Made by a program: the position numbers and the translations under genes. Positions 4,028 through 7,119 of a stretch of 64,000 bases of DNA are shown here, piece after piece. The notes beneath the pieces were generated by a model. It made no database searches, had not been told where the DNA came from, and worked only from the letters and a program-made list of their open reading frames with translations. Position 1 is the first letter of the stretch; every line of letters begins with the position of its first letter. This stretch comes from Sandaracinus amylolyticus (lineage in GTDB: Bacteria > Myxococcota_A > Polyangia > Polyangiales > Sandaracinaceae). The DNA lies in assembly GCF_000737325.1 (NCBI RefSeq), contig NZ_CP011125.1:2542001-2606000 (forward strand), written 5' to 3'.

Positions 4028-4798
4028 ATGACAGCACGACTCTCCAGGCAGGCATCGGGGCAGCGGCACTTGCGATGGGGGCGCGAGATCCACGCGACCC
4101 TCCGCGCGCACATCGCGCACGACGATCTCCTGAGCGACGCCCAGCGCGCGGCGCTCGACGCCGAGTCGGCGCGCCTCGGCGCGACGCTCACCACGCTCGA
4201 GACCGCGACCGCCGCGTACGGGCGCTGGCTCTCGGGCGCGCACGTCGAGTCGCGCGCGAGCCTCCGCGTCGCGAACTACGTCGCGGACGAGGCGCAGCGC
4301 GCGGTCGACGCGACGCTCCGCCCCCACCGCGACACCCTCGCGCGCTTCCTTCCCGGCGGCTGGAGCACGCTGTTCGGGGATCTCTCGCTCTCGCGCGTGC
4401 TGCGCGCCGGTCACGCGCGCACCGCGAAGCTCGCGGCCGACGGCGCGTCGATGCTGCGCAGCCTGCCGTCGTCGGTGCCGGGCGCGGGCGCGCTGCCTCC
4501 GGTGAGCGCGCTCGCCGATCGTCTCGACACCGCGGCGACGCGCATCCGCGGCCTGCTCGATCACGTCGAGCGCGAGGTCGAGCCGCAGCGCCGCCCGCTC
4601 AAGAGCGCGGTCGAGCGCGGCGTGTTCGACCTGCGCGAGGGGCTCGAGCAGATGGACGCCCGCCTGCGCGCGACGTTCCCGGCGTCGTTCATCGAGAGCC
4701 TCTATCCCGAGCTGACGCGCGGGGGGACCGCGATCGCGGACGAGCCCGACGAGGACGACGACGACACCGACCCGCCCGCGCCCGCGCCCGCCAGCTGA
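4028..4798 (+). CDS. hypothetical helical protein
   Basis: 256 residues; I do not recognise a family. The sequence is almost entirely predicted alpha-helix, rich in Ala, Arg, Leu and Glu, with one short Pro/Gly break (LPGGWSTLFGD, about residues 110-120) and a strongly acidic tail (DEPDEDDDD) followed by a Pro/Ala stretch. There is no signal peptide or membrane segment, so it is probably cytoplasmic. The ATG at 4028 has a purine-rich AGGGGCAG upstream. Codon use matches the neighbours, with G/C in nearly every third position, supporting a real gene. A perfect 8-bp hairpin follows the stop within 6 bp. Confidence 0.75.
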   Translation: MTARLSRQASGQRHLRWGREIHATLRAHIAHDDLLSDAQRAALDAESARLGATLTTLETATAAYGRWLSGAHVESRASLRVANYVADEAQRAVDATLRPHRDTLARFLPGGWSTLFGDLSLSRVLRAGHARTAKLAADGASMLRSLPSSVPGAGALPPVSALADRLDTAATRIRGLLDHVEREVEPQRRPLKSAVERGVFDLREGLEQMDARLRATFPASFIESLYPELTRGGTAIADEPDEDDDDTDPPAPAPAS

Positions 4799-4860: not shown

Positions 4861-5246
4861 CTCGAAGAGGCATCCGTCCGAGCTGACGGGTGCCTCTTCG
4901 AGTCTCGAAGAGGCGTCCGTCAGAGCTGACGGGTGCACCTTCGAGTCGCATGGAGGCGCCCGCCACGGCGGACGGGTGCTCCTTCGAGGTGCGTGGATGC
5001 ATCCGTCAGCTCTGACGGGTGGATCGTGGGATCTCGAAGATGCGTCCGTCCGAGCTGACGGGTGCCTCTTCGAGCCTCGACGACGCGGTCGTCAGGTCGG
5101 ACGGGTGGATCGCGGAGACGACGAGGCGCGGTCCGCGGCGCCGACGGGTGGGTCGTCTCGACACGAGGATGTGGTCGGCGGTGCCGACGCGGGGCTCGTC
5201 GACGCGCGATCGACGGGTGCGACCGGCGGACGAGCGCGGCGTCGAC
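4861..5246. repeat. nine-unit tandem array of 43-bp palindromic repeats
   Basis: The landmark GACGGGTG, or a decayed form of it, occurs at 4885, 4928, 4971, 5014, 5057, 5100, 5143, 5186 and 5229: exactly 43 bp each time, with no indels. Each 42-bp unit is itself an inverted repeat. In unit 1 (4861-4902) the left arm CTCGAAGAGGCATCCGTC pairs with GACGGGTGCCTCTTCGAG around a 6-nt loop, with a single mismatch that would be a G-U pair in RNA. Units 1, 2 and 5 are near-identical; units 3 and 4 are diverged, and units 6-9 decay progressively toward the regulator gene at 5296. The 43-bp period is close to four helical turns. It fills the 497-bp gap between 4798 and 5296 and encodes nothing convincing. 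Confidence 0.93.
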
Positions 5247-5295
5247 GCGGCTTCCCGCCGCGCCCGCATCGCGGTATGCCGGACGTCCAGGAGCG

Positions 5296-7118
<1,823 letters not shown>

Positions 7119-7119
<1 letters not shown>

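Follow-up and report, generated by a model that had tools for sequence, protein, structure and literature searches.

We analyzed a 64,000-nucleotide window of the Sandaracinus amylolyticus chromosome (G000:C1:2542001-2606000), in which a tandem array of 43-bp palindromic units lies upstream of a gene for an FHA-sigma54 activator. The source genome (G000) is one contig of 10,327,335 bp; the genome of S. amylolyticus DSM 53668 is 10.33 Mb (PMC5010890). Tandem Repeats Finder (TRF) assigned the array, which starts at 4861, a period of 43 with 0% indels over 4861-5111, and a repeat search of the window gave successive unit spacings of 43, 43, 43, 43 and 43. We then ran across the window a unit scoring matrix derived solely from three other arrays of the same genome. 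Units 0-5 (4861-5118) scored 25 to 55 bits, against a background maximum of 1.0 in the window. Units 6 and 7 (5119-5204) were decayed, yet still reached significance at the exact register (P = 0.0002 and P < 0.0001, respectively), and the ninth unit (5205-5247) was marginal (P = 0.019); the array stops there, with no further units. The observation behind the original prediction is confirmed. The predicted spacing is indeed free of indels; the nine predicted units comprise six strong, two decayed but significant and one marginal unit. The prediction also described three near-identical units and gradual decay of the last four; the best units (0, 1 and 4) are not consecutive, the diverged units 2 and 3 separating unit 1 from unit 4. 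By eye, unit 2 matches one unit of the G000 6,169,710 array at 39/43 positions.

Because each unit is approximately a degenerate palindrome over its full length, dyads of two kinds alternate every 21.5 bp: dyad A, CCGTC-MG-NN-CK-GACGG, and dyad B, TCTTCGA-NNN-TCGAAGA. A second copy of dyad B, with one mismatch, is at 5067-5083. The predicted hairpins with 16- to 18-bp arms are real as sequence: the 18-nt arms of unit 0 form 17 Watson-Crick pairs and one G.T pair. Hairpin stability is predicted at -31 kcal/mol per unit, and three tandem consensus copies fold at z ~ -5.9 on both strands when compared with shuffled units. The units were also thought to lie on one face of the DNA, but this is not strictly so, because 43 bp corresponds to 4.1 helical turns, with a drift of ~34 degrees per unit.

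Using a covariance model of the unit, we searched the whole genome and found exactly four strong arrays, at 2,546,861 (the window array), ~4,885,900, 6,169,710 and 6,813,479. Their spacing is 43 bp throughout, save for one 44-bp unit. All 17 occurrences of the exact 16-bp core, CCGTCMGNNCKGACGG, in the 10.3 Mb lie inside the four arrays; neither a strong unit nor a solitary exact core was found outside them in the whole genome. The neighbors of the four arrays are mutually unrelated (FHA-sigma54; esterase-like/YkuD; CAP protein and SecA; EamA and FG-GAP amidase), and a stop codon adjoins each array on at least one side. The original prediction had envisaged copies scattered without 43-bp phasing; they are scattered in unrelated contexts, but phasing is kept in 4/4 arrays. 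The homologous orientations of the arrays are + + - -, and four sites are too few for replichore polarity. Elsewhere, the 43-bp family was not found in 38 relatives, 237 Myxococcota genomes, ~85,000 species genomes, viral contigs, phages or plasmids; the sole pattern match among the ~85,000 species, in a Lentisphaeria metagenome-assembled genome, was not a tandem array. In the genomes searched, the family is restricted to this Sandaracinus genome. A phage or plasmid origin of the array was rejected, as phages, plasmids and viral contigs gave no match, and so was RAYT/IS200 mobilization, as the genome contains no Y1_Tnp domain.

The presence of the arrays differs between close relatives. In a second species of the same genus (G002), whose flanking sequences are mostly 88-96% identical in DNA, the 43-bp family is missing from all four orthologous sites. 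At the SecA site the array is precisely absent, with nothing inserted, and at the amidase site 48 bp stand in its place. At the esterase site (L204; the gap orthologous to L056:5725-6237), G002 carries an unrelated 21-bp tandem array, GCCGATCGACGAAACAGGGCC, meaning that one intergenic gap hosts unrelated arrays in the two species. At the window locus, blastn adjacency and junction sequences delimited a segment that is precisely absent from the G002 site and contains an orphan open reading frame (ORF) and nearly the whole array. Its junction has ~3 bp of microhomology, and the junctions overall share just 3-5 bp. The product of the orphan ORF had no match in Pfam, PHROGs, NCBIfam or phages, and the ORF is absent from the relatives' loci that were examined. 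The features of the locus are listed in the table.

Table. Features of the array locus, in window coordinates.
Feature	Coordinates	Strand	Description
Indel segment	3950..5237		1288 bp; precisely absent from the orthologous G002 site
256-aa ORF	4028..4798	+	Inside the indel; ends 62 bp before the array; acidic tail
Unit 0	4861..4903		Near-perfect palindrome; core CCGTCCGAGCTGACGG at 4874-4889 (exact); 54.6 bits
Dyad B	4895..4911		Second dyad, between units 0 and 1; exact match; 21.5 bp from dyad A
Unit 1	4904..4946		Core CCGTCAGAGCTGACGG at 4917-4932; 48.9 bits
Unit 2	4947..4989		Diverged type, CGCATGGAGGC...; 25.0 bits
Unit 3	4990..5032		Core CCGTCAGCTCTGACGG at 5003-5018; 35.3 bits
Unit 4	5033..5075		Core CCGTCCGAGCTGACGG at 5046-5061; 51.2 bits
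Unit 5	5076..5118		Core at 5089-5104 with one mismatch; 32.2 bits
Unit 6	5119..5161		Decayed, in 43-bp register; -2.8 bits, P 0.0002, best offset 0
Unit 7	5162..5204		Decayed, in register; 7.0 bits, exceeds entire background
Unit 8	5205..5247		Marginal remnant; P 0.019
FHA-sigma54 activator-HTH_8 gene	5296..7119	+	Downstream of the array; 97% protein identity in G002, where the array is lacking

To place the array among the tandem repeats of the genus, we applied TRF to 1.264 Mb of G000 plus 0.4 Mb of G002 (1.66 Mb from two Sandaracinus genomes) and split coding from intergenic arrays with a simple codon-usage gene finder. Coding arrays have periods in multiples of three. Among intergenic arrays with periods of 25-60, the period was 41-43 in 20/29 arrays and in 16/24 families of mutually unrelated sequence (P = 2e-12 in a binomial test against a uniform period). 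Arrays of this class were found in convergent gaps in 11/20 cases, as compared with 77/645 gaps overall (odds ratio 9, P = 7e-6), and they avoid divergent gaps (P = 0.017). Array families are dispersed across both genomes. The class is enriched for palindromy of the full unit (8/20 arrays significant, combined P = 7e-8), with no enrichment in coding arrays. A class rule of two dyads spaced by exactly half a period was considered and rejected, as it fits only some class arrays. Judged from flank and array coordinates alone, six sampled G000 arrays occupy the orthologous position in G002 (L073, L084, L118, L123, L125 and L133), and seven with mapped flanks are not (L067, L082, L113, L117, L119, L136 and L140). 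In smaller samples of other genera, no intergenic class array was detected in a relative (G007, 0.37 Mb) or in members of two other families (G037 and G013, 0.27 Mb). Another relative (G005) has two 42-bp arrays that were scored as intergenic but resemble coding repeats. All of these genomes are drafts, so some arrays may have been lost in assembly. Searches of the open-access literature returned no description of such a class, and a term search of the genome paper found repeats mentioned just in the CRISPR and insertion-element methods. The window array, through its family, represents a genus-level class of intergenic Sandaracinus arrays with 41-43-bp units that has apparently not been described before.

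Several further arrays were recorded. A smaller intergenic group (L064-L145 of G000 and L086-L105 of G002) has a period of 20-22 bp, half that of the main peak, and is not palindromic; the array at L083:1058-1331 shows 21-, 42- and 63-bp periods together. At L059:1453-1798 (G000 7,428,952-7,429,297), an array of an unrelated 41-bp unit (8.5 copies), noticed by chance next to a weak match to the covariance model, lies 10 bp past a stop codon. A second dispersed intergenic family has 55-bp units (L110:18066-18284 and L129:5173-5308). Intergenic arrays with longer units (88-108 bp), often at a stop codon, were found at L081:2479, L137:2080, L139:10846, L078:16001, L134:6107, L098:15708 and L102:4781. 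A perfect (100%) 24-bp array of 5.4 copies at L136:8986-9114, overlapping a gene end, is probably very recent.

We analyzed substitutions and pairing in the 43-bp family. There were 226 substitutions in 1075 unit bases, as against one 1-bp indel. Substitution events on the unit tree were uneven (variance/mean 2.6; 99.9% limit of the null, 1.85), and substitution rates on the two sides of the palindromic axis mirrored each other (r = 0.86, 0/20000 permutations), with 0.37 for the next axis. In every array, core positions of dyad A deviated from the consensus less than outer positions. The mirrored rates, together with the rigid spacing, point to DNA-level recognition of half-sites, which we consider, with modest confidence, the most likely working principle for the 43-bp family. 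The half-sites themselves vary independently: the arms of one hairpin paired no better than arms taken from other units (arm permutation, P = 0.36 and 0.72 for the two dyads), in a test whose simulated power was 90% at 10% compensation of broken pairs. Hence the transcribed multi-hairpin RNA that had been offered as one option is at odds with the evidence, which argues against conserved RNA hairpins. Strand asymmetry was rejected as a sign of transcription, since the excess of G.U versus A.C flips sign by array and not by gene direction. An Rfam search returned spurious microRNA models only, far below gathering scores, and a search for intrinsic terminators (GC-rich hairpin followed by a T tract) returned 0 sites.

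The window array is thus one member of a family of tandem DNA elements that is dispersed in the genome and specific to this lineage. Its arrays occupy gene 3′ ends in a manner comparable to enterobacterial BIME/REP (bacterial interspersed mosaic element/repetitive extragenic palindrome) clusters. We tentatively propose that a protein dimer recognizes these elements as double-stranded DNA, reading each half-site separately; the protein could be either the machinery that amplifies and spreads such arrays or a DNA-binding protein that sits on them in the gaps between genes. Several observations weigh against this proposal. Left and right arms have more outer halves in common than chance predicts (33 versus 11 expected), and the mirror correlation drops to 0.70-0.86, according to the array orientation, and to 0.29-0.53 within single arrays, indicating that exchange between arms explains part of the mirror signal. 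Most other families of the class have near-uniform substitutions (variance/mean 0.7-1.2; F1, 1.8), as does neutral DNA, and 12/20 class arrays are not significantly palindromic. The lack of a solitary exact core in the 10.3 Mb outside the arrays gives no sign of a regulator that uses the same operator elsewhere, and no binding protein was identified. A broader suggestion seems doubtful to us: that Sandaracinus machinery, whether an amplifying enzyme or a DNA-organizing protein, builds or keeps ~42-bp (four-turn) arrays at gene 3′ ends largely independently of sequence, the window array being, by extrapolation, one among well over a hundred loci of this kind.

A phased DNA array and a selfish tandem repeat, both options of the original prediction, fit the evidence. 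The latter would be a neutral or selfish minisatellite family whose units originated in slippage or unequal crossing-over. Gene conversion or ectopic copying would have spread it, and it would be tolerated owing to the safety of gene 3′ ends, its palindromy and period arising from amplification with no present function. We regard this as a real possibility: arrays are absent, replaced or swapped for an unrelated array at the sister sites, the window array decays from one side, unit types are shuffled among arrays and arms, of the class arrays that were mapped, about half are away from the orthologous position, and the substitution patterns of most other class families are near-uniform. Taken alone, however, it leaves unexplained the 41-43-bp units in 16 unrelated families, the near absence of indels and the uneven, mirrored substitutions of the 43-bp family. 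A transcribed multi-hairpin RNA, or a bidirectional terminator or 3′-end protector between genes, would account for the position at gene 3′ ends, the enrichment in convergent gaps and the very stable predicted hairpins, but we consider it unlikely: covariation was not detected despite good power, nor was a U-tract terminator or a real Rfam family, the homologous orientation of the arrays is independent of neighboring genes, and the G.U versus A.C excess switches sign among arrays rather than tracking transcription. The unit size and 16-bp core size equal those of F-plasmid sopC and could suggest a centromere- or nucleoid-organizing array bound by a ParB-type dimer. This is very unlikely, however, as ParA/ParB are not beside the four arrays, which are located at 2.5-6.8 Mb with dnaA at 9.82 Mb, and the parallel may be coincidence. 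Least credible is a cis-regulatory (enhancer-like) array for the FHA-sigma54 gene, a tie implied by the original prediction: the array ends 48 bp before the start codon of this gene, but the other three arrays have unrelated neighbors, and the sister species has the gene, 97% identical, without the array. A tie between the array and this gene is therefore not supported.

Bacterial tandem repeats are usually regarded as independent accidents with arbitrary unit length. Here, 16 unrelated intergenic families of one genus share a 41-43-bp unit, favor convergent gaps and are often palindromic, as if a length of DNA were being measured by something. An enzyme, if responsible, would represent a new way in which repeats are born and spread; a DNA-binding protein, if responsible, would represent a new kind of chromosome organizer or 3′-end insulator in myxobacteria. 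The regularity across unrelated arrays calls for explanation, and the array-present and array-absent alleles in two close species make the question directly testable.

Finally, we compared the arrays with known systems. They resemble CRISPR arrays in having regularly spaced palindromic units; these are contiguous and lack unique spacers, and CRISPR had been correctly excluded from the outset. REP/BIME elements are intergenic palindromes at gene 3′ ends, mostly in convergent or unidirectional gaps, clustered and patchy among relatives (PMC3733652), and BIME-2 elements are gyrase sites in E. coli (PMC6379681). The present arrays likewise lie at gene 3′ ends and avoid divergent gaps. Unlike REP/BIME, they have no unpaired GTAG or CGTC tag (CGTC is inside the paired arm), no RAYT-type transposase (PF01797 is absent from the genome, with a positive control in E. 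coli) and no solitary copies, singlets or dimers, and their head-to-tail spacing is a constant 43 bp. Borg tandem repeats are head-to-tail intergenic units with fast turnover between close relatives (PMC9879509). The Sandaracinus arrays share both features with these and with bacterial minisatellites, but differ in their imperfect, palindromic units, in the presence of one family at several loci and in a unit length of 41-43 bp across unrelated families. In F-plasmid sopC (parS-F), tandem 43-bp direct repeats contain a 16-bp inverted-repeat core (PMC6238139, PMC9178275). Our arrays differ in being chromosomal and dispersed at four sites, in having a nearly wholly palindromic unit with a second dyad and in the lack of a parAB operon adjoining any of the four arrays, so that membership appears to fail. 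They are nonetheless tandem 43-bp direct repeats with one 16-bp inverted-repeat motif per unit, and sopC is their closest architectural parallel.
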